This document shows, piece after piece, positions 13,059 through 43,589 of a stretch of 60,794 bases of DNA (position 1 is its first letter; every line of letters starts with the position of its first letter). The DNA comes from Spirochaetota bacterium (GTDB taxonomy: Bacteria > Spirochaetota > GWB1-36-13 > JAKPDD01). A model generated the notes under the pieces. That model had not been told where the DNA came from, did no database searches, and saw only the letters and a list, made by a program, of their open reading frames with translations. The stretch spans positions 1-60,794 of the forward strand of contig JAKPDD010000026.1 in NCBI GenBank assembly GCA_029552945.1. Direction: 5' to 3'. The translations under genes and the position numbers were made by a program.

Positions 13059-14222
13059 ATGAAAAGTATGGGAATATTTGATAACAATTTATTTTTTACT
13101 AATAAAAATATAGAACTCGATAAATACATAAATAATTATTGCTTTAATATTCAAATTTTTGCCTCACCTGAAGATGAAGGAAGAACAGAAGAACCGACTG
13201 AAAGAAAGAGAAGAAAAGCAAGAGAGGAAGGTAATGTTGCAAAGTCACAGGACCTTGTCTCTGCCTTTGTATTTCTATTTAGTTTCTGGACATTATGGTT
13301 TTTAGCTAAGACAATAATAAAAAGTCTTAAAGAATATTTTCTATACACTTTTTCTAACTTAAATCAACCATATTCATATAGTAATGTTACATCATCAATC
13401 CTTGACTTTTCATTTTTTTTCTGGAAATTAATAGGTCCAGTAATATTTGCTGCTGTAATAATTGGATTTCTTGTTAACGCTTTTCAAGTTGGTTTTATGT
13501 TTGCACCAAAAGCTATTGTTCCTAAGTTTAGTAAAGTATCTTTTACTTTATCTAAATTAAAAGAACGTGTTTTAATGTCAAAAACTGTTTTTACTAACTT
13601 TATTTTTTCTTTGATAAAGTTTATATTACTACCTATCATATTTTTTATAATCCTTAAATCAGAAATAACAGAAATAATGAACCTTGGATTTATGGGAATA
13701 AGTCCATCTATAGACTTTATTGGTAATATGATATTAAAGTTGTTTAATTCTACCGGTATATTGCTTCTTGCTATTGCTATTCCAGACTATTTTATTAAAA
13801 AGAAACATTATGAAGATTCTCTTAAAATGACAAAGGAAGAATTAAAAAGAGAGTTCAAAGAAGAGGAGGGAGATCCACTTATAAAGGCTGAAATAAGAAA
13901 GATGTATATGTCTATACTTAACAAAAAGAATATAAGAAAGAGGGTGCCTGAATCTGACTTTGTTGTAACAAACCCGACTCACTATGCTGTAGCAATAAAA
14001 TATGATATGATGGAAATGAGTGCTCCTATTGTTATGGCTAAAGGTGAGGAGCAGGAGGCTTTATTAATCAAAGAAATTGCAAAAGAACATAATGTCCCTA
14101 TTATAGAAAATCCACCTTTAGCAAGGCAGCTATATAATTCAACTGAGGTTGGACAGGAGATACCCCCAGAGTTTTATGTTGTAGTTGCAGAAATATTGAT
14201 ACAGATAGGTAAGTTTAAATAA
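13059..14222 (+). CDS. flhB: Flagellar export switch protein FlhB
   Basis: This 387-residue inner-membrane component of the flagellar type III export gate switches export from rod/hook to filament subunits. The E-D-E-G-R-T-E-E-P-T-E segment (38-48) and R-K-A-R-E-E-G-N-V-A-K-S are the conserved FlhB start. They are preceded here by a nearly 40-residue extension. Four hydrophobic helices follow (about 66-90, 118-150, 178-200 and 222-245), then the cytoplasmic domain with the autocleavage motif N-P-T-H at 305-308. The extension resembles the 'LQWFAAEDEGRTEEPTE' start known from spirochaete FlhB. The export genes that usually surround it are absent here. Confidence 0.95.
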   Translation: MKSMGIFDNNLFFTNKNIELDKYINNYCFNIQIFASPEDEGRTEEPTERKRRKAREEGNVAKSQDLVSAFVFLFSFWTLWFLAKTIIKSLKEYFLYTFSNLNQPYSYSNVTSSILDFSFFFWKLIGPVIFAAVIIGFLVNAFQVGFMFAPKAIVPKFSKVSFTLSKLKERVLMSKTVFTNFIFSLIKFILLPIIFFIILKSEITEIMNLGFMGISPSIDFIGNMILKLFNSTGILLLAIAIPDYFIKKKHYEDSLKMTKEELKREFKEEEGDPLIKAEIRKMYMSILNKKNIRKRVPESDFVVTNPTHYAVAIKYDMMEMSAPIVMAKGEEQEALLIKEIAKEHNVPIIENPPLARQLYNSTEVGQEIPPEFYVVVAEILIQIGKFK

Positions 14223-14267: not shown

Positions 14268-15110
14268 TTGAAATTAAATTACAGAAAAAACACTTTAGAT
14301 ATATCGAATAAATTAAAATCAGAAATTGCTATAAGAAGGGCAAGGTTTGCTAAAATTTATGATTATGATGGAAATAAGTTTTTTGACTTTTATCTTTTCG
14401 ATGGAAGTATAATATTTGGATATAACTATAAGCCAATATCAAAGATTTTGAAAAATACAATAAGTTATGGTTTTTTAAACTATTACCCTAACCATCTTGA
14501 ATTAAGGGCGAAGAAAATTATAAAATCAGTTTACCCAGGATATGAGTTCTACTTTTTTTATAGCTTGGATTCTATCAAAAAATGGTTTTATAATTCTGGT
14601 ATAGAACCAGTTTTTATTACATACAATCAATATAGTGAAAATATTGATAATAGTTCTATTTTATATTTGGGAAATAGAACATTAAGAACAAATTTTAAAC
14701 CAGAAATAAAATACATAATTTTATCACCTGCAATTGCTAATGGGCTTGAAGTTTATGCCTTTGGGATAAGGGAGTCAGAGGATTTATATGTTAAAGAAGA
14801 CAAATTACCTCTTATATACTACCAGTCTATAATAACCACAATATCTGAGTACATTAAATATAAAGATATTTTTGACAATATATATTTGAAAAAACTTTTT
14901 GATTATAAAAATAATATTAACTATCTTGGGGGTGGTATTTTTACTTTAAATGACTTAAATATTTCAGAGTTTAGGGATATTTTATTTAAACATTGTATTT
15001 ATATTGAAAAAGGACAGAATGAAATATTTTTATGTTTAAAGACTGAAGAACATCAAATAAAGTATCTTTTTAAAGTTTTAAAAAAAATAAAAAATGGAGT
15101 GATAGAATAA
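14268..15110 (+). CDS. Degenerate class III aminotransferase-like protein lacking the PLP lysine
   Basis: This 280-residue protein starts at TTG 14268, with TAAGG seven bases upstream. Its N-terminal third looks like fold-type I class III aminotransferases (glutamate-1-semialdehyde aminomutase type): Y-D-Y-D-G-N-K-F-F-D-F at 31-41, then a G-Y-N-Y-K-P segment at 51-56. At 152-166, L-S-P-A-I-A-N-G-L-E-V-Y-A-F-G aligns with the usual 'x-G-K-A-I-A-N-G-x-P-x-S-A-x-G'. The Schiff-base Lys is Pro154, so PLP catalysis as in the family is not expected. It is about 140 residues shorter than active enzymes, with the middle domain reduced. It is the first gene of the murG-ddl-ftsQAZ run and abuts murG (TAATG). 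Confidence 0.6.
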   Translation: MKLNYRKNTLDISNKLKSEIAIRRARFAKIYDYDGNKFFDFYLFDGSIIFGYNYKPISKILKNTISYGFLNYYPNHLELRAKKIIKSVYPGYEFYFFYSLDSIKKWFYNSGIEPVFITYNQYSENIDNSSILYLGNRTLRTNFKPEIKYIILSPAIANGLEVYAFGIRESEDLYVKEDKLPLIYYQSIITTISEYIKYKDIFDNIYLKKLFDYKNNINYLGGGIFTLNDLNISEFRDILFKHCIYIEKGQNEIFLCLKTEEHQIKYLFKVLKKIKNGVIE

Positions 15111-16141
15111 TGAATAAAAATATAATAATAGCAGGGGGAGGGACTTTTGGGCATATAAGACCAGCCCTTACTATTAAAAACTGGTTGGAAGATATTGGTT
15201 TTAATGTTTTTTATTCATGTGCTGAAAGGGATAAAAAGTTTCCTTTCTTTCATAAGGAGAAAAACATTTTTCCAATTAAACTAACAGGATTGCCAAGGAC
15301 AAAGAATATATTTAAATTGATACTATTCTTTTTTAAGTTGTTTTCTGCAATTTTTAAGGCTTTTTTAATCTTACTTAAGATAAAGCCAACTATAATAATA
15401 ACAACTGGGGGATTTGTCTCTTTTCCTTATCTATTATTAGCCAAAATATTTAGAAAACCTTATTTTATATTTGAGCAAAACTCTATTCCTGGGCTTGCTA
15501 ACCGTCTGTTTTTTAAAAGTGCAAAAAAAGTTTTTTTATCTATTCCGTTAAAAGGATATGAAAACTTAACTAATTTTATTTTATCTGGTAATCCTATAAA
15601 TGTTAAAGTTTATAATAAAGAAGATGCAGCCAAAATATTGGGAATTGATTTTTATGATAATAAAAAATATATTTTAGTTTTTGGTGGTAGCCAGGGAGCT
15701 AAAACAATAAATAATATTTTTTTATCAAATATTGAGAGTTTGAAAAAATTATCTGATTATATGTTTATTTTAGTTACAGGGGATGATACTAAAGTAGTGG
15801 ATGAAAATATTATTACATTTAAGTTTATAGAAGATATGGGTGCTGCTTATTCTTTATCAGATTTTATTATATCAAGAGCAGGTGCAAGCACTGTTTCTGA
15901 GGTTATATATTTTCAAAAACCAACAATTTTTATTCCTTATCCTTATGCTACTGAAAATCATCAATTTTATAATGCTAAGTTCGCTTTAGAAAATATTAAT
16001 GGTATTATAATAGATGAGAAAGATATTAATTTTGATATAATTATTAATTCTTTAAAAAAGTTAGATAATACCGAAAAAATAATAGTGAATAAATATGACA
16101 CAAAAAAAATTGTAATTGATGAGGTATTAAAATGGATTTGA
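15110..16141 (+). CDS. murG: UDP-GlcNAc:lipid I GlcNAc transferase
   Basis: This 343-residue membrane-associated GT-B glycosyltransferase makes lipid II from lipid I in peptidoglycan synthesis. The N-terminal glycine loop reads G-G-G-T-F-G-H (9-15) with the conserved His15. One Gly of the standard GGTGGH is Phe here, which is unusual. A second-domain loop F-G-G-S-Q-G-A-K-T-I-N-N, the donor-binding S-R-A-G-A-S-T-V-S-E, and P-Y-P-Y-A-T-E-N-H-Q are all present. The start codon overlaps the previous stop by one base, and its own end overlaps ddl by 10 bases. Confidence 0.93.
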   Translation: MNKNIIIAGGGTFGHIRPALTIKNWLEDIGFNVFYSCAERDKKFPFFHKEKNIFPIKLTGLPRTKNIFKLILFFFKLFSAIFKAFLILLKIKPTIIITTGGFVSFPYLLLAKIFRKPYFIFEQNSIPGLANRLFFKSAKKVFLSIPLKGYENLTNFILSGNPINVKVYNKEDAAKILGIDFYDNKKYILVFGGSQGAKTINNIFLSNIESLKKLSDYMFILVTGDDTKVVDENIITFKFIEDMGAAYSLSDFIISRAGASTVSEVIYFQKPTIFIPYPYATENHQFYNAKFALENINGIIIDEKDINFDIIINSLKKLDNTEKIIVNKYDTKKIVIDEVLKWI

Positions 16142-33160: not shown

Positions 33161-36100
33161 TCATATTTTCTTTAAAACCAGCATTGTAATATCATCTTCT
33201 TGATCAGCCATCCAAGAATCAACTGCTTCAATAACTGATTCTATAATCTCATGTGGAGTTTTATTTCTATTTTTCATTACAACATCAAACAGCCTTTTTT
33301 CACCAAACATTTCAGCTTCTTTGTGTTTTTTCCTTTCATTTTTTAAAATATTTTTAGCCTCTGTTATACCATCAGAATAGAAAAATATTAGGTCTCCCTT
33401 ATTAAGCTTATACTTTTCAGATTCTTGATTTAGGACTGCATCTTCCATAATTCCAACTAAAAAACCAGAGGATGGTATTGTTTTAATTTCACCATTTGAA
33501 GTGCATATAAAGGGTTCAGCATGGTCATTACCAAATATTTCAAAATTACCATCTTTATCAAACCTAAACAATCTTAATGTCATATACATATGGGAATATT
33601 CATTTTTCATTGTTCTTTTTGAAATTCTTTCCTGAATATTTTTGTAGAGTGTTCTATTTATTATTTGATACAATTCATGAATTGGCTTTTTCTTAATATC
33701 ATTATTTTCAATTATAGTATTAAAAGACACCTCAGCCATCATCATAACAAGACCTGACTTTAATCCATGACCTGATACATCTCCAAATACACCAAAATAA
33801 GGTTCTTCATCAAGGTATATGTCATAATAATCACCCCCTACTTCAGCTGCTGTTCTCATAAAAGCGGCAACCTCATAGTATTGATTTTCTTTAATGAATG
33901 GTAGAATTGATGTTTGAATATTTTTTGCTATCTCCATCTCCTGTTCGATTTTTGCCTTTTCTTGCATTTTCTGATACAGTCTTGCATTTTCTATTGATAT
34001 AGCAGCCTGAGTTGCAAATGCTTTTAAGAGTTCAAAATTATCTTTTGTAAAAACACCCTTTACCTCTCTATTATCAAGATAGATAGCACCTAACATTTTC
34101 TGTGATGTTCTTATTGGGACCGTGATTATTGATTTTATTTCTGATTTTATTTTGTTATCAATATTATCATAATTTTCAAGGTCTTCAATAATCTGAGCTT
34201 TTGATGTCTTTATTGTTTTCTCTACTATATTTTCTGGATAATAAATTTTTTCTTTTATCTCAAGCCCATCAGCACCAACCATTAATACTGGAGAAAAATT
34301 AGATCTTTCTGGATCATCAAGGTTATCATACAAAAATAGAATACCTATTTGAGCACCTGATGTTTTCATTGCAAGAAACATTATTTTTCTTAGAAGTTCA
34401 TCCATATTATATGACTTTACAAGCTCTTCTGATGCCTGTAAGAGTGCTTTTAACATGATTTGTGAAGTAAATTGTGTCTGAGTTTTTGTATAAGTATATG
34501 TTTTTGTTGCCTCAAAATCTTTATCTTCTGTTTCTTCTGAAATAAAATCTTCATTATTTCCTGAGATAGCTTTTATTATATTATCAATATTTTTAATTTC
34601 ATTTTTTAGGTCTCTTGATATGTAAAATTTTTTTATCTCATCATAGAGTTTATGACCCTCACTTATATTACCTTTAAGTATTAAAACTTGAGCTTTTAAG
34701 CCTAAATTGTAATGGTAAAGATATTCGTAATACTTACCTATTGATTTCACTATTCCAAGTATTTTATCAATAATAGATAAACATTTGTCAAAGTCTGGCT
34801 GTAATTGAGAAAGTTCATCATAAACTTCAAGCCTTAATTTCCATTGTTCAAATATTTTTGGATTTGATATACCAACATACTTTAGACCCTCTTCAAAATA
34901 CTTTTTTCCTAATTCTTTTTTGCCAATAACATAGTATGTTTCTGAAATTGTAAACAACAACATCCACAAGCCTATAATTATATTATGCTCCTTAGACATT
35001 TCGATAGAAGATATCATATATTTAATACCTTCTTCAAATCTTAACATATTTATGTATGCCCTTCCAATATTGAATGTTATATTACTTTCAAGTGTAATAT
35101 TTTTAAGTTCTTTAGCCATCTCGAGTGCTTTTTTATTGTATTCTAGTGCATCGAGTGGATCACCAATCATAGAATAGACACTTGCTTTGAAAAAATATAT
35201 ATATAACCTATTAAGATTATTTCTTACTATATTTTTGCCCTCAATTAAATTGTTTATCTTTGTGATAATCTCTATTAATCTATAATTATTTTTTAATAAA
35301 CTTATTATATTTTCTCCCTCCAGTATTTTCTTGTTAGTTATTGTTAACCTTTTGTTTATTTCATTAATTATAGTAATATAAGTTTCTTTTAATCTATCTT
35401 TTTTTCTTTTATTTTCTCTGTTTAATATAATGCTATTAATTATAAGTTCATAATCCAACAATTCTTTAGAATCTTCAGATAAAATAGATTCTAATATGTT
35501 TTTTGCTTCCATTAATTCTTCATTAAAAATGAAAAAAAGATCATCATATGGTATGTATTCATCTGTAAGCTTTTTTATTATTGAAATAGCATCTTTTTTA
35601 AGACCTACTGCAGCATAAGATTGTGCTAATATTCCAAGTGAGTATATCCATTCAAGCTCTTCTTCTTTGGAAAGGAGTTTAAGTCCTTTTTGGATATTTT
35701 CTATAGCATCACTAAAATTAGCCATATAACAATGTGCCCTTCCTATTGCACAATAAGGTATTGCAAGAAGGTTATTAAGTTTTAATTCTTCAGCAAGTGG
35801 AATTACCATAGAATAAAATTGCATTGCTGATACCTGATTACCAACAAAATAGTAGTTTTTTCCAAGCATATAGTAACAGTATGCAAGTTCTTTATTTAAT
35901 TTGTTTTGCTGAGCTATTTTTATTGTCTCTTCAAGTAATTTTATACTTTCTTTATACATAGCAAGTTGAAAATATATTTCAACTATTTTTATAGTAAGAT
36001 TGATTTTTCTTAGACTATTCCTTTTGGTTGTATTTTTATCTTCTTCAAAAGAATCTAATATATTTAAAGCATTCAAATAAAAAGAGCTTGCTATTTTAAG

Positions 36101-38332
36101 AGCAAATGAAGATAATGCAATATCCCCTGCTTCCTTATTGTAAATATAAGCATCACTCTTTTTATCTGCCTCCATATAATGGTAGGCAAGCATAAATACT
36201 TTTTCATTTCCTTTATAAAAGTCTTTTATAATATCACCTGCTATTCTGTGAAGGGTTTTGTATTCGTTAATATCTATTTCCGAAGTCAGAATACTTATCA
36301 TTTTATCATGAGAAAAAGAATATAAGATGTCACCTTTTTCTGTTATCTTTTCTTCTATAATCCTTGATTTAATTGCTTCATTAAGAGAGTTTAAAACATA
36401 TTCTTTTGAATATTTTTCTAAGTTATTTAATTTAGAATATTTTTCTATAAGTTCATAAAGTATTTTAAAATTAAACTCTCTGCCTAGTATTGATGCAATT
36501 TTAATAACTTTTTTTGTATTATCATCAATATTTGAAAGTCTTATCAATATATTGTCAACTATAGTTCCCGCGAGTTTTTTATTAGCCATTTTTTTAAGAT
36601 CAACAACCCACTTATCAGAATCCTGTTTTATTATACCATCTTCAACTAAGTTTTTTATATTTTCTATTAATATAAGTGGGTTACCACCTACTGACTCATA
36701 GAGCTTTAGGGCAAGTTCAGTAATATTATCTATTTTACCAAATATTTCAGTTATTAAATCTTTAGTTTCTTCAAGATCAAAATCCTGAATATTCAGTATA
36801 GACATTCTATTCTCAGAAGACTCTCTTTTAATAAAATCTATAAATTCTTTCAGTTCAAGTGATAAATCTTCACGTATCAATAAAAGTATATATATTCTTT
36901 TATTTAAAATTTCATTATGAAAAATTTTAAATAACTGGATAGTGTCATCATCCCAGAAATGTACGTCATCAAACACAAGTGTTAAAGGAAATATCTCTGA
37001 TACTGATTTGAAAAATGTTATTATGCTATCTAAGAAAACTTCCTTTTCCTTTCTTGAGAATAAAAAGTTTTCTGGCAACTCTCCTACTATGTTTTTCATC
37101 GCTAAAATAAATTTTGATAATATTTTCCCATCTTCTCCTAGATCGTTTTTAATTTTATTTAGTATTTCATCTTTTCTATCTTTTGAATATTTGAATATTT
37201 TATTTATTATATTTTCAATTGAATTAATTACAGGAAAATATGGATATTTTTTGTTTCTCTCATCGCTTATATTGTATATATACATAATTTTTTTATTATA
37301 TGCATATTTTTCGAGTTCTTGAACAAGCCTTGTTTTTCCTACTCCTGACTTTCCTATTATTAAGGTTGAAAAACCTTTATTAAGTAATATGCTATTGATC
37401 TTATCTAATAGGTGTTTTATCTCTCTTTTTCTGCCAACAAGAATGGTTGTATAATTTATTTTTTTTATTCTATCTTTAAGACCTAAATCAAGATAGACTG
37501 TCATTTTTTGTTCATCTGTAAGAGACAAATATTTTTTTAAGTCTTCAGCAAGCCCGTAAGCAGTCTGATACCTTTCGTCCGGGTCTTTTTTAATAAGTTT
37601 AAGTATTATCTTATTTATTATTGGGGAAAGTTCTGGGACAATATTTTTCGGTTCCTCAGGAATTTTTGCAATATGCTGGTAAATAAGTTCTTCGGGGGTT
37701 TCAGAATAATACGGTAATCTCCCAGTAATAAGCTGATAAAGCAATATGCCTAAAGAATAAAGGTCAGAACGTGTATCTATAGGTCTTTTAAGAATTCCAC
37801 TTTGCTCTGGAGACATATATGCAAAACTACCCTCAATCTTGTAGTTAAGACTTGTTAAACTTTGAAAGTCTATAAGATTTGCTATACCAAAATCCAATAT
37901 TTTTATACTATTATCTTTCTTTACCATTATATTACTTGGTTTTATATCTCTGTGAACAATATTCTGAGAATGTACATAATCAAGTGCCTCCGCTATTTTG
38001 ATAATTATTTTTATTTTTTCATCAATAGACACTTTACTGTTTATGAAATCTTTAAGACTTACACCTTCAATATACTCAGTTACTATATAAAGGTATTTAT
38101 CTTTTTTTATAAGTTCTATAAACTTTACAATGCTTGGATAATTAAGCTTTTTAAGATTATCTGCCTCTCTTTTAAACCTCAGAAAAGTTTCGCTCTCAAC
38201 CTCAACATCTGTTTTTAATGTTTTAATTGCAAAAATATTTTTACTATTTAAATTAATTGCTTTATAGACAACACCCATACCACCTGATGCTATTTCTTCT
38301 ATTATCTGATAGTTATCAATAATTTTTTGCAT
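33161..38332 (-). CDS. Giant signalling protein: Ser/Thr kinase, AAA-type ATPase, helical repeats, GAF, SpoIIE phosphatase (copy 1)
   Basis: This 1723-residue cytoplasmic protein has five parts. Residues 1-265 are an active-looking kinase with glycine loop A-S-G-G-M-G-V-V-Y-K-A, catalytic H-R-D-I-K-P-S-N near 130 and D-F-G near 148. At about 295-560 is a P-loop ATPase of the PknK/MalT kind, with Walker A G-K-S-G-V-G-K-T near 325 and Walker B L-V-F-D-D-V-H near 452. Helical TPR-like repeats follow (about 600-1290), then a GAF domain (about 1300-1460). Last is a PP2C/SpoIIE phosphatase (about 1465-1723) with G-G-D-Y-Y-D, G-D-V-S-G-H-G, Y-S-D-G-I-T-E-A and E-D-D-I-T-M intact. The chain can in principle both phosphorylate and dephosphorylate. 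It lies 100 bases downstream of its paralogue. Confidence 0.9.
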   Translation of the reverse strand: MQKIIDNYQIIEEIASGGMGVVYKAINLNSKNIFAIKTLKTDVEVESETFLRFKREADNLKKLNYPSIVKFIELIKKDKYLYIVTEYIEGVSLKDFINSKVSIDEKIKIIIKIAEALDYVHSQNIVHRDIKPSNIMVKKDNSIKILDFGIANLIDFQSLTSLNYKIEGSFAYMSPEQSGILKRPIDTRSDLYSLGILLYQLITGRLPYYSETPEELIYQHIAKIPEEPKNIVPELSPIINKIILKLIKKDPDERYQTAYGLAEDLKKYLSLTDEQKMTVYLDLGLKDRIKKINYTTILVGRKREIKHLLDKINSILLNKGFSTLIIGKSGVGKTRLVQELEKYAYNKKIMYIYNISDERNKKYPYFPVINSIENIINKIFKYSKDRKDEILNKIKNDLGEDGKILSKFILAMKNIVGELPENFLFSRKEKEVFLDSIITFFKSVSEIFPLTLVFDDVHFWDDDTIQLFKIFHNEILNKRIYILLLIREDLSLELKEFIDFIKRESSENRMSILNIQDFDLEETKDLITEIFGKIDNITELALKLYESVGGNPLILIENIKNLVEDGIIKQDSDKWVVDLKKMANKKLAGTIVDNILIRLSNIDDNTKKVIKIASILGREFNFKILYELIEKYSKLNNLEKYSKEYVLNSLNEAIKSRIIEEKITEKGDILYSFSHDKMISILTSEIDINEYKTLHRIAGDIIKDFYKGNEKVFMLAYHYMEADKKSDAYIYNKEAGDIALSSFALKIASSFYLNALNILDSFEEDKNTTKRNSLRKINLTIKIVEIYFQLAMYKESIKLLEETIKIAQQNKLNKELAYCYYMLGKNYYFVGNQVSAMQFYSMVIPLAEELKLNNLLAIPYCAIGRAHCYMANFSDAIENIQKGLKLLSKEEELEWIYSLGILAQSYAAVGLKKDAISIIKKLTDEYIPYDDLFFIFNEELMEAKNILESILSEDSKELLDYELIINSIILNRENKRKKDRLKETYITIINEINKRLTITNKKILEGENIISLLKNNYRLIEIITKINNLIEGKNIVRNNLNRLYIYFFKASVYSMIGDPLDALEYNKKALEMAKELKNITLESNITFNIGRAYINMLRFEEGIKYMISSIEMSKEHNIIIGLWMLLFTISETYYVIGKKELGKKYFEEGLKYVGISNPKIFEQWKLRLEVYDELSQLQPDFDKCLSIIDKILGIVKSIGKYYEYLYHYNLGLKAQVLILKGNISEGHKLYDEIKKFYISRDLKNEIKNIDNIIKAISGNNEDFISEETEDKDFEATKTYTYTKTQTQFTSQIMLKALLQASEELVKSYNMDELLRKIMFLAMKTSGAQIGILFLYDNLDDPERSNFSPVLMVGADGLEIKEKIYYPENIVEKTIKTSKAQIIEDLENYDNIDNKIKSEIKSIITVPIRTSQKMLGAIYLDNREVKGVFTKDNFELLKAFATQAAISIENARLYQKMQEKAKIEQEMEIAKNIQTSILPFIKENQYYEVAAFMRTAAEVGGDYYDIYLDEEPYFGVFGDVSGHGLKSGLVMMMAEVSFNTIIENNDIKKKPIHELYQIINRTLYKNIQERISKRTMKNEYSHMYMTLRLFRFDKDGNFEIFGNDHAEPFICTSNGEIKTIPSSGFLVGIMEDAVLNQESEKYKLNKGDLIFFYSDGITEAKNILKNERKKHKEAEMFGEKRLFDVVMKNRNKTPHEIIESVIEAVDSWMADQEDDITMLVLKKI

Positions 38333-38432: not shown

Positions 38433-41400
38433 TTATTTTTTCTTTATTATAAGCATAGTAATGTCATCTTCCTGTTCAACCATCCAGGAATCAACAGCAT
38501 CTATTATAGAGTTTATTATTTCTGATGGCGACTTATCTCTGTTCCTGGCAACTATATCAAATAACCTCTCCTCACCAAACATTTCTCTAGCTTTTTTGTT
38601 ATTTCCTTTACTCTCATTTTTGGCCTCAGTTATTCCATCTGAATATAGGACAAGTATATCTCCGCTTTTAAGTTTAAACTCAGTAGGGTTACCTTTCATG
38701 ACTGCATCTTCTACAATTCCAATTAAAAACCCTGATGAAGGTATTGGAGTAATCTCACCTGTATCTTTTCTGCAAATAAAAGGTTCTGCATGGTCGTTAC
38801 CAAACATCTGGAAGTTACCGTCTTTATCAAATCTAAATAACCTGAAAGTCATATACATGTGTGAATAACCACCCTTTTTACTTTTCTTTGAGAGCCTACC
38901 CTGTATATTCTCATATAGTGTTTTATTTATAACTTGATAAATATATTCTATCGGCTTATTCTTAAGGTCAGTGTCTTTCATAACTGTATTAAAAGATACC
39001 TCAGCCATCATCATAACAAGACCTGACTTAAGCCCATGTCCTGATACATCCCCAAAAACACCAAAGTAAGGTTCATTATCAAGGTAAATATCGTAGTAAT
39101 CACCCCCAACTTCTGTTGCTGTCCTCATAAAACCAGCAATGTCATAATACTGGTTTTCTTTTATAAAAGGAAGTATGGATGTTTGGATATCTTTAGCTAT
39201 CTCCATTTCCTGTTCAATTCTTGCTTTTTCCTGAACCTGTTTATAAAGTCTTGCATTCTCTATTGATATAGCAGCCTGTGTAGCAAAAGCTTTTAATAGT
39301 TCAAACTTATCTTTTGTAAAAACACCCTTTACTTCTCTATTATCAAGATATATAGCACCTAAAATTTTCTGTGATGTTTTAACAGGAACAGTTATAACAG
39401 ACTTAATTTTTGTTTTCAATTCCTCATCAAAATTTTCTTTTTCAAGGTTTTCAATAAGTTGAGCTCTTGAAGTTGTTATTGTCTTTTCTACAATTAGTTT
39501 AGGATATAGCAGTTCATCTTTAATTATTTTACCGTCTTGATCAACTTTTAAAGCTGGTATAATACTGGAGTTCTTAATATCATCAAGATTTTCATACAAA
39601 AATAGTATTCCGTATTGAGCACCTGATGTCTTCATAGCAAGAAACATTATTTTATTGAGAAGTTCTTCCATTTGATATGATTTTGCAAGTTCTTCTGATG
39701 CTTCAAGTAATGACTTAAGTTGTAATTGTGATGAAAATTGAGTTTGAGACTTTGTAAGTGTTGCAGTATATGTACTTGTAACTTCCATATCTTCCACAGC
39801 AGGTATTTCAGTTTCACCCAAAATTCTTTGTTTTAAATACTTGGCTTTATTTATATCAATATCAAGGTCTCTTGATGCATAAAATGCTATGACCTCATCA
39901 TAGATCTTTTCAGCCTCTTGCCTATTACCTTTAGAAAAAAGAATAAATGATTTTGTTAAAAGATTGTAATAATAAAAGTATTCATAGTATTTTCCAACTT
40001 CTTTTGATATTTCTAATGCCTTTTCAATAAGATTAAAACATTTATCATAATCAGGTGATAATAAGGATAATTCATCTAAGGCTTCAAGTCTTAGTTTCCA
40101 CTGTTCAATTATTTTTGGATTTGATATACCTACGTATTTTTTCCCTTCCTCAAATGCCTCTTTAGCTGACTCTCTATTACCAACAGTATAATAATTTTCA
40201 GCAAGTGCAAACATAAGCATCCATATACCAATTAATGTATTATGTTCTTTTGCAAGGTTTATAGCAGATGAAATATTTTTTATAGCTTCCTGAAAATTAA
40301 GAATGTTAGAATAAGCTCTTCCTATACTAAATATAGAGTTTATTTCAAGAGTTGGATTTTTAAGTTCTCTTGACATATCCAGTGCTTTTCTTGACTCAAT
40401 AAGTGCATCTTTTGGATTGCCTATCATTGAATATACACTTGCTTTAAAAAATTGAATATACAGTTTATGTATCTCATTTTTTATTATTCTTTTATTTTTT
40501 ATTTTGTCTACAATATTTTTTACAGAATTTGCTATTCTATCCTTTTTACCAGAAAATTTTGAAAAATTATCTAATATTTTTACATCAGTTTTTATGTCTT
40601 TTTGAGAAGCTTTATTTTCAATAGTATTTATTATTCTTTTTAGAAATTGTTCAATTTGAGATTTATCAATGTTTGAAGTTTTAATATCTATTATATTGTC
40701 AAATATAACGTTTAATGAAAGAAAATCCTTAAAATTTTCTGGAAGAACTTCATTAATCTCTTTTTCTATCTCTTTAATCTCGTTTTCATTATTTTTTAGT
40801 TCATAATCATAAGGAGGAAAATCCTCTAAAAGTCTTGAAATAGTATTTAAAGCCTCTCTCTTAAGACCAACAGCAGCATAAGACTGAGCTAATATTCCAA
40901 GAGAATAGATCCATTCTATCTCCTCATCTTTTGGTAAGATAGCTATTCCTTTCTGTATATAATCAATTGAATCATCAAATTTAGCTATATAACAGTTTGC
41001 TCTTCCAATAGCACAGTAAGGAATAGCAAGTAGTTTATCAAGTTTAAGTTCTTCAGCAATCGGGATTACTTTATAATAAAAATCCATAGCAGCAACTTGA
41101 TTTCCAAGAAAGTAGTAATTTTTTGCAAGCATATAATAACATTTTGCAAGTTCTTCTTTAAATTGATTTTTCTCACTTAATTTCATAGTTTCTTCTAGGA
41201 GAGCAATATTTTCTTTATACATTCCTAATTGAAAATAGATATCCACTATTAAGAGAGCAAGTTCTATTCTTGTTGATATAGCTTTTTTTGTTTCTTTTGC
41301 AAACTGTCGGAGTATATTAAGTGAATTCATGTAAAAGTTAGCAGCCAGTTTTAATGAAAATGAAGATGAAGCAAGGTCACCTGCCTGTTTATTATAATGG

Positions 41401-43589
41401 TATGCTTCTGTTCTCCTATCTCCTTCAAGATAATGATATGCAAGCTTGTATATTTTATCATTGCCATGGTAATTATTTTTTATTACATCCCCTGCTATTC
41501 TGTGATAGTCTCTATAGTCTTTTCTTTCAATTTGAGATATTAAAGATTCAATAACTTTATCATGCGAAAATGAATATATTACCTTTCCACTTTCAGATAT
41601 TTTCTGTTCTATTAAATAATTTTTAGTAGCTTCCTCAAGATTATCAAGTAGTTTTTCTTGGGAAAATTGAGAGTATTTTATATTTATTTTCGAGTATTCC
41701 TTAATTATCTGAAAAAGCGTTATAAAATCAAACTCTTTCCCCAATATTGATGCTATTTTTAATATAGATTTTGTTGAATCAGATATTTTTGATATCCTTG
41801 ATATTATATTATCAAGTATTGAAGATGAAAATCTAAAATGGGACAATTTTTCAAGATCAACAATCCATCCTTCATTTTTTTGTTTTATAATCTCTTCTTC
41901 TACCAGGACTTTTATGTTTTCTATTAGGAGGAGTGCATTTCCGCTTGTTGCTTCATAAAGTCTTGCTGAAACTTCAGGTAGGCCCAAATATACATTTCCA
42001 AATATTTCCAGTATGAGAGAATCAACATCATCAGGAGCAAAGTTTTTAATATCAATTATTGACATATTGGTTTCGCCAGCTTCTTTTCTTATGAAATCTA
42101 TTAAGTCTTTCATGTTAATAAGGGATTCTTCCCTTATTGAAAGTAGTATATATATACTATTTTTTCTAAGAGAGCTTTGAATATGTTTAAAAAACTGGAT
42201 ACTACCTTCGTCCCAAAAATGGATATCATCAAAAACAATTATTAATGGTCTTATCTCTGATACTGAAATAAAAAAGTTTTTTAAACTGTCCAAAAAAACT
42301 TCACTCTCTTTTCTATTAAAAACATAATTATCAGGCAATTCACCTAATATATTTTTTAAAACTGGTGATATTTTTGATAATATTTTACCTTCTTCTCCAA
42401 GGTCTTTTATTATTTTTGAAATTGCCTCATTTTTCTTTGATTGCCCAAGTTTTGAAAATAGCTTTATTACACTTTCAATTGATGTAATTACAGAATAAAA
42501 AGGATAGGTCTTATTTCTTTCATCACTTGCAACATATATATAAAAAGCATTTTTTGTGCTGGTATATTTTTGTAATTCCTGTAAAAGTCTAGATTTTCCT
42601 ACCCCTGACTTTCCTATTATTAATGAGGAGAAACCTTTTTTAAGTAGTGTATTGTTTATATTATCAAGTAAGTGTGTAAGTTCCTTTTTTCTATCAACAA
42701 GTGTTGCACTATAATTAACTTTTCTTGTTTTATCTTTTTTACCTAATTCAAGATAAAATGTTTTTTTCTGCTCTTCGTTGAGTTGAAGATATATTTTCAG
42801 GTCTTCAGCAAGTCCATAAGCAGTCTGATACCTTTCGTCCGGGTCTTTTTTAATAAGCTTAAGTATTATCTTATTTATTATTGGAGAAAGCTCTGGAACA
42901 ATATTTTTTGGTTCTTCAGGTATTTTTGCAATATGTTGATGTATAAGTTCACCAACATCTTTTGCATCATAAGGTAGTTTACCTGTAATAAACTGATAAA
43001 AAAGTATCCCAAGTGAATAAAGGTCAGATCGTGTATCTACTCCTCTTTGCAACATTCCACTCTGTTCAGGTGACATATAGGCAAAACTGCCCTCTATATT
43101 TTTAGATAATGTTATCATATCCTGAAAGTCCATAAGATTTGCAATGCCAAAGTCGAGTATTTTCACAGTATTATCTTTTTTAACCATTATATTACTTGGT
43201 TTTATATCTCTATGAATTATTCCATTCAAATGAACATAGTCAAGTGCTTCCGCTATTTGAAGAATTATCCCTATTTTTTCATCAATTGTAAGATTTGAAT
43301 TAATAAGATCTTTTAAATTATATCCATCAATATATTCAGTTACTATATACAGTCTTTTATCTTTTTCCAACAAATCAATAAATTTTAATATGTTTTTATG
43401 ATTAAGTTTTTCAAGATTTTCAGCTTCTTTTTTAAATCTTATAAAAGCTTCACTACCCACATCAACATAATATTTTAAAGTTTTTATTGCTACAACAGTC
43501 TCATTTTTTTCATCAACTGCTTTATATACAATACCCATACCACCTTCAGATATCTTTTCTATTATTTTATAACCATGAATATTTTCCAT
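38433..43589 (-). CDS. Giant signalling protein: Ser/Thr kinase, AAA-type ATPase, helical repeats, GAF, SpoIIE phosphatase (copy 2)
   Basis: This 1718-residue protein is collinear with the product of 33161-38332. The kinase has I-S-E-G-G-M-G-I-V-Y-K-A, H-R-D-I-K-P-S-N near 130 and D-F-G. The ATPase has G-K-S-G-V-G-K-S near 330 and I-V-F-D-D-I-H. The GAF domain (about 1300-1460) and SpoIIE domain (G-G-D-Y-Y-D, G-D-V-S-G-H-G, Y-S-D-G-I-T-E-A, E-D-D-I-T-M) are intact. Identity is very high in the kinase tail, GAF and phosphatase. It is lower in the repeat region around residues 930-1030, where ligand or partner specificity may differ. GGAGA precedes the ATG. It is the upstream gene of the pair. 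Confidence 0.9.
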   Translation of the reverse strand: MENIHGYKIIEKISEGGMGIVYKAVDEKNETVVAIKTLKYYVDVGSEAFIRFKKEAENLEKLNHKNILKFIDLLEKDKRLYIVTEYIDGYNLKDLINSNLTIDEKIGIILQIAEALDYVHLNGIIHRDIKPSNIMVKKDNTVKILDFGIANLMDFQDMITLSKNIEGSFAYMSPEQSGMLQRGVDTRSDLYSLGILFYQFITGKLPYDAKDVGELIHQHIAKIPEEPKNIVPELSPIINKIILKLIKKDPDERYQTAYGLAEDLKIYLQLNEEQKKTFYLELGKKDKTRKVNYSATLVDRKKELTHLLDNINNTLLKKGFSSLIIGKSGVGKSRLLQELQKYTSTKNAFYIYVASDERNKTYPFYSVITSIESVIKLFSKLGQSKKNEAISKIIKDLGEEGKILSKISPVLKNILGELPDNYVFNRKESEVFLDSLKNFFISVSEIRPLIIVFDDIHFWDEGSIQFFKHIQSSLRKNSIYILLSIREESLINMKDLIDFIRKEAGETNMSIIDIKNFAPDDVDSLILEIFGNVYLGLPEVSARLYEATSGNALLLIENIKVLVEEEIIKQKNEGWIVDLEKLSHFRFSSSILDNIISRISKISDSTKSILKIASILGKEFDFITLFQIIKEYSKINIKYSQFSQEKLLDNLEEATKNYLIEQKISESGKVIYSFSHDKVIESLISQIERKDYRDYHRIAGDVIKNNYHGNDKIYKLAYHYLEGDRRTEAYHYNKQAGDLASSSFSLKLAANFYMNSLNILRQFAKETKKAISTRIELALLIVDIYFQLGMYKENIALLEETMKLSEKNQFKEELAKCYYMLAKNYYFLGNQVAAMDFYYKVIPIAEELKLDKLLAIPYCAIGRANCYIAKFDDSIDYIQKGIAILPKDEEIEWIYSLGILAQSYAAVGLKREALNTISRLLEDFPPYDYELKNNENEIKEIEKEINEVLPENFKDFLSLNVIFDNIIDIKTSNIDKSQIEQFLKRIINTIENKASQKDIKTDVKILDNFSKFSGKKDRIANSVKNIVDKIKNKRIIKNEIHKLYIQFFKASVYSMIGNPKDALIESRKALDMSRELKNPTLEINSIFSIGRAYSNILNFQEAIKNISSAINLAKEHNTLIGIWMLMFALAENYYTVGNRESAKEAFEEGKKYVGISNPKIIEQWKLRLEALDELSLLSPDYDKCFNLIEKALEISKEVGKYYEYFYYYNLLTKSFILFSKGNRQEAEKIYDEVIAFYASRDLDIDINKAKYLKQRILGETEIPAVEDMEVTSTYTATLTKSQTQFSSQLQLKSLLEASEELAKSYQMEELLNKIMFLAMKTSGAQYGILFLYENLDDIKNSSIIPALKVDQDGKIIKDELLYPKLIVEKTITTSRAQLIENLEKENFDEELKTKIKSVITVPVKTSQKILGAIYLDNREVKGVFTKDKFELLKAFATQAAISIENARLYKQVQEKARIEQEMEIAKDIQTSILPFIKENQYYDIAGFMRTATEVGGDYYDIYLDNEPYFGVFGDVSGHGLKSGLVMMMAEVSFNTVMKDTDLKNKPIEYIYQVINKTLYENIQGRLSKKSKKGGYSHMYMTFRLFRFDKDGNFQMFGNDHAEPFICRKDTGEITPIPSSGFLIGIVEDAVMKGNPTEFKLKSGDILVLYSDGITEAKNESKGNNKKAREMFGEERLFDIVARNRDKSPSEIINSIIDAVDSWMVEQEDDITMLIIKKK

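Follow-up and report, generated by a model that had tools for sequence, protein, structure and literature searches.

The closest described relatives of the protein discussed here are GSAM/HemL and the other class III aminotransferases (PF00202), which are fold-type I enzymes that form dimers. The protein has the sequence of the N-terminal domain in common with these enzymes, as well as the topology of its predicted model, a remnant of the Lys/glycine loop and a C-terminal small domain. It differs from GSAM in its length (280 aa vs. ~430 aa), in having a Pro for the GSAM Lys and in the absence of the SGTEA, YHG, DE and AGTLSGNP motifs. Fold-type I pseudo-subunits are known as well, as in serine palmitoyltransferase, where LCB1 pairs with LCB2. 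LCB1 (SPTLC1) resembles the family described below in being a fold-type I protein that lacks the PLP Lys and has a non-catalytic role. However, it belongs to a different fold-type I subfamily, the chain of the Lys-less family is much shorter, and LCB1 pairs with an active homologue whereas the members in Borreliaceae have no active class III homologue. With LCB1 as an example, PLP-fold pseudoenzymes are already known as a kind. In the open-licence papers searched, neither a description of this family nor biochemical or genetic data on any member were found.

The gene lies in a window of 60,794 nucleotides, i.e., the whole stretch of DNA that was analysed (contig JAKPDD010000026.1 of a Spirochaetota bacterium); gene and product are called the window gene and the window protein here, and the features are listed in Table 1. 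The reading frame was found as first described in an earlier note on this DNA, including its length, its TTG start, the overlap with murG and Pro154, and its GC content is low (0.24). The overlap consists of one base, shared by the murG ATG at 15110 and the stop codon of the window gene (15108-15110). The same note had placed the gene at the head of the murG cluster. With only 45 bp between it and the end of flhB, which precedes it on the same strand, it lies between flhB and murG and cannot clearly be called the head of that cluster. Elsewhere in the window, two adjacent, very large ORFs of near-equal length (33161-38332 and 38433-43589, minus strand; 1723 and 1718 aa) are possibly a tandem duplication.

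Table 1. Coordinates of the window gene, its parts and neighbours, and of examples of the small membrane protein in other genomes.
Feature	Coordinates	Strand	Remarks
Lys-less class III aminotransferase-like gene, pseudoenzyme with high probability	14268..15110	+	280 aa, TTG start, intact ORF
Residues 19-100, conserved N-terminal domain	14322..14567	+	sole part matched to GSAM by sequence; D40, G51, K62, R24
Residues 101-147, short, poorly modelled stretch	14568..14708	+	in place of ~140 GSAM residues (SGTEA, YHG, DE)
Residues 148-170, Lys/glycine loop relic (YIILSPAIANGLEVYAFGIRESE)	14709..14777	+	aligned with GSAM ILGKIIGGGLPIGCFGGKEE
Pro154 codon CCT, in place of Schiff-base Lys	14727..14729	+	sequence, GSAM alignment
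Residues 180-275, C-terminal small domain	14805..15092	+	AF2 pLDDT mostly 74-93; GSAM C-terminus alignment
flhB, upstream neighbour (context only)	13059..14222	+	Pfam Bac_export_2, 8e-109
murG, downstream neighbour (context only)	15110..16141	+	1-bp overlap with the window gene
ddl, ftsQ, ftsA, ftsZ, after murG	up to 20184		ftsA and ftsZ named from translation
Small membrane protein, examples	L042:1522-1827, L058:7239-7538, L075:5489-5905, L080:2382-2741

In sequence searches, only the N-terminal ~80 residues of the window protein are matched to GSAM. Residues 19-97 match the GSAM of PDB entry 3l44 (E = 3.6e-6), the NCBIfam GSAM model is matched at E = 1.9e-7 with 30.1 bits vs. a cut-off of 637, and Pfam Aminotran_3 (PF00202) at E = 0.0057 with 15.8 bits, i.e., below its cut-off of 30.5. 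The curated cut-offs of both collections thus lie above the scores of the window protein, and of all scanned members just two longer ones, L040 and L047, exceed that of Pfam. An AF2 model of the window protein was built from 39 family members and has a mean pLDDT of 81.3 and a pTM of 0.81. Its best PDB matches in Foldseek are class III aminotransferases (best E 9.9e-11, TM of at most 0.70 over the query), and GSAMs top the PDB matches of a separately modelled Borreliaceae member (AF2, pLDDT 86.1; class III at E 9e-8); both comparisons use predicted models, with an rmsd of ~5-11 Å over gapped alignments, and inform on the fold class only, not on detail. At that level, the predicted topology is fold-type I, nearest to class III. 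Judged by sequence and model together, the window protein is of class III ancestry beyond chance. The class III-like identity proposed in the earlier note is thus retained, including the fold-type I similarity on which it hinged.

The cofactor site is where the window protein departs from these enzymes. Residues 152-166 read LSPAIANGLEVYAFG, with Pro as residue 154, and the GSAM alignment puts Pro154 exactly on the position of the Schiff-base Lys. The loss of this Lys, as claimed earlier, is therefore borne out. It is not the sole loss, since GSAM residues ~125-265, including the YHG and DE motifs, are reduced to ~45 residues, and the PLP-holding His and Asp, which are kept by true enzymes, belong to the deleted segment; the phosphate-binding residues and most of the PLP domain are gone too. 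From sequence and model we infer that the window protein lacks PLP chemistry and cannot transaminate.

A search of 60 genomes with the window protein yielded many short ORFs with the N-domain and a single good homologue (34%), in G001 (GWB1_36_13), the identity being 34-36% along most of the length. A profile (A3) of 39 family members, the window protein being one of its rows, was subsequently compared with 393 Spirochaetota genomes. At E ≤ 1e-14 it matches 225 of them, which is not a clean family count: A3 gives true GSAMs scores of up to 109 bits, so that some of the weak matches are enzymes, and very divergent members fall below. This threshold was rejected as a family count on its own because true GSAMs can pass it. 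About 180 of the 393 genomes match at E < 1e-35, which is, as read from the table of matches, better than any true enzyme scored; the window protein, itself part of the profile, matches at E 1.8e-52.

The Schiff-base Lys is present in all 21 true class III enzymes aligned and in none of the 52 aligned members, so that the pseudoenzyme of the earlier note, a reading that a Lys retained in relatives would have undermined, is a conserved one. Members with a recognisable loop have P, T, N, S, G, A or E in the former Lys position; the shortest members have no loop, and the letter aligned there means little. Most short members lack both the loop and the entire middle of the PLP domain; the glycine-rich loop relic is kept in window-type and longer members. 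As the f5 members and L040 are longer (~360-405 aa) and keep the Asp, L040 also keeping the His, degeneration looks stepwise, after loss of the Lys. L040:381-1457 is a near full-length member (359 aa) with Asp, His and an IIGGG loop, and with Thr for Lys; it looks like an intermediate in decay. In a tree of the N- and C-terminal parts, all 52 members fall on one side of a branch with a support of 98/95, found in 96% of bootstraps; the tree covers 135 columns, has long branches, and takes its 21 true enzymes from spirochaetes only. The window protein belongs to the family by its profile match, its missing Lys and its grouping with the members apart from the true enzymes. At the level of sequence and predicted structure, these data demonstrate a phylum-wide family of shortened class III descendants with a single origin, from which the Lys, together with most of the PLP site, would have been lost before the sampled spirochaetes diverged. 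That it is a family of pseudoenzymes can be stated with high confidence.

The family is evidently under constraint. In a set of 15 Borreliella copies, dN/dS has a median of 0.16 (range 0.06-0.29), with 0.06 for the first 90 codons, 0.20 for the middle and 0.28 for the C-terminus, which puts the rate of evolution of the last two parts at three to five times that of the N-domain. On the basis of these low values the protein is functional and under purifying selection, the N-domain being its most constrained part. Within this domain D40 is found in 52/52 members, G51 in 51/52, K62 in 50/52 and R24 in 47/52. K62 is less conserved in true class III enzymes, where it occurs in 8 of 21.

In many families, the gene is followed by one for a protein of 97-105 aa with three or four hydrophobic segments, the ends of both genes often overlapping. 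This membrane protein family is unannotated, carries a W[ST]RTR-like motif (119 aa in L080) and has no convincing match in Pfam. Searched for independently of the pseudoenzyme family, it is present in 116 of the 393 genomes. Both positions are known in 75 genomes: the membrane protein lies directly downstream on the same strand in 59, among which are three longer loci of the f5 type that were positioned manually, and is unlinked in 16. Six genomes (f18, f29, f3, f16) have the membrane protein and no strong family match. In each, the pattern of the family is found in the ORF immediately upstream: the profile match is clear in three (3e-19, 5e-18, 8e-8) and stands at 4e-6 in a fourth, and L096 and L098 show the pattern by motif only. 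The f18 copies (L096, L097, L098), open frames of 416-520 codons directly upstream of the membrane protein, are very divergent; the profile detects them barely or not at all, and they were recognised only by where they lie and by a short lysine/glycine motif. In the genome of the window the membrane protein was not found, and G001 and the Borreliaceae are absent from the list of matches in the 393 genomes. A match in the window's own genome was discarded, as it lies antisense inside flhB and contains two stops. Where the membrane protein exists, we give a partnership with the pseudoenzyme an even chance. Such a partnership is common and not universal, and with no accepted match for the membrane protein in the window genome, G001 and the Borreliaceae it cannot explain function in all members.

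With regard to function, there is good reason to expect a non-catalytic binding role. Overall, we lean towards an ancient, dead class III descendant that serves as a non-catalytic binding or adaptor protein, often with a membrane partner. Its N-domain, which stems from the subunit-interface part of class III enzymes, would be the conserved working surface. Since the N-domain is paired in many lineages with the small membrane protein encoded directly downstream, the pseudoenzyme would probably be a membrane-recruited adaptor or regulator, recruitment taking place where the small protein exists. A more tentative extension is that the dead class III aminotransferase and the three-to-four-segment membrane protein form a shared ancient two-part module with a spirochaete-specific housekeeping job; both parts are kept in a treponeme-type genome of 1.1 Mb (L080). 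This extension also holds, equally tentatively, that Borrelia lost all its active class III aminotransferases while the pseudoenzyme remained.

Alternatively, the fold could have been re-used as a different, PLP-independent enzyme or, through the former active-site cleft, as a ligand sensor, and the conservation of the family could then be due to an unrecognised PLP-independent enzyme activity. The persistence of the loop relic in window-type and longer members fits with this, as does the near invariance of R24, D40 and K62, of which K62 is less conserved in true enzymes. However, the loop and the middle of the PLP domain are missing from most short members, and the faster evolution of the middle and C-terminal parts is unlike what is expected of a cross-domain active site, making this alternative improbable.

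The reading proposed in the earlier note takes the pseudoenzyme as co-expressed with murG-ddl-ftsQAZ and as serving lipid II synthesis, with MurG, or division in the manner of a scaffold or regulator. The one-base overlap and the tight same-strand packing in the window genome agree with such a role, and so does the presence of two cell-envelope genes, lolA and a rodZ-like gene, a few genes away in many families. The commonest gene order is lolA - rodZ-like - rimO - uvrD/pcrA - family gene - (small membrane protein) - rplM - rpsI, and that in Borreliaceae gatB - family gene - rplM - rpsI - eno (rimO, uvrD, rplM, rpsI and gatB named from translations). The family gene adjoins groEL in the nearest relative, G001, and is found in the context of rny in L039, L047, L053 and L064, of deoA-recJ in L044 and L057, and of tsaD in the 1.1-Mb genome. 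For Treponema pallidum, nothing relevant turned up under locus tags inferred from tsaD. Neither murG nor any other window gene lies beside it among the 38 further family loci compared. The usual neighbours (uvrD/pcrA upstream, the small membrane protein or rplM downstream) are replaced in the window by flhB and murG, and linkage to murG or the fts genes is not conserved. The adjacency to murG therefore looks like a local arrangement of this genome that gives co-expression and is no evidence for a lipid II role. This takes away what chiefly spoke for a part in lipid II synthesis or division, and we consider such a role unlikely. The flhB neighbour might point to the flagellum, but this reading is disfavoured too, since G280 keeps the family gene without a FlhB match, which makes the flagellum an unlikely client. 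A peptidoglycan role via transpeptidase loss in family f49 was uninformative, the f49 genomes having a transpeptidase. The RodZ-like protein, an HTH protein encoded upstream of uvrD, is a frequent near neighbour (L050/L054, L042).

Family f36 was assigned by us to the Borreliaceae from map position and gene order. As rplM, rpsI and eno are BB_0339, BB_0338 and BB_0337 (PMC9524633), the B. burgdorferi member of the Lys-less family should, by gene order only, be BB_0340, situated between gatB and rplM where the window gene has flhB and murG. BB0340 has been labelled a methionine sulphoxide (or disulfide) reductase (PMC3147059; PMC5013056). The protein at the BB_0340 position (L054:6668-7510) has no methionine sulphoxide reductase domain and PF01625 is unmatched in two Borreliaceae genomes, so this label looks wrong and is unsupported by the sequence. 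BB0345, essential for mammalian infection according to a paper title in a reference list (PMC8316131), was considered as the Borrelia member and ruled out, as it is the RodZ-like neighbour by gene order.

In six Borreliaceae genomes no class III aminotransferase scores above the Pfam cut-off, the best match being the Lys-less protein itself. This bears on the idea that the protein pairs with an active class III aminotransferase as the non-catalytic half of a heterodimer, in the style of LCB1-LCB2. The dimeric nature of class III enzymes would permit such a pairing, and the genome of the window has two true ones, L021 and L022, which by reading are ArgD-like and BioA-like. Nevertheless, the six Borreliaceae genomes keep the protein without a class III enzyme over the cut-off, so an active homologue is not an obligate partner and a heterodimer is very unlikely as the general function; moreover, no enzyme partner gene was seen beside the family gene. 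The least probable explanation, by which the gene is a pseudogene in decay or the window genome is misassembled here, might be read into the low GC content, the short chain and the single homologue matched along its length in the single-sequence search, but it is already refuted for the family by the open frame, the identity to G001 along most of the length, the Lys-less orthologues throughout the phylum and the purifying selection in Borreliella.

The pseudoenzyme family, most readily understood as one of non-catalytic binding proteins, is directly testable through its linked membrane protein and strongly conserved N-domain. It is rare for PLP enzymes to have given rise to a pseudoenzyme that is found throughout a lineage. 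In Lyme- and syphilis-type spirochaetes, selection has preserved this family in the course of genome reduction; its members there are annotated as hypothetical or carry doubtful labels, and its retention points to an unmapped core function of spirochaetes.
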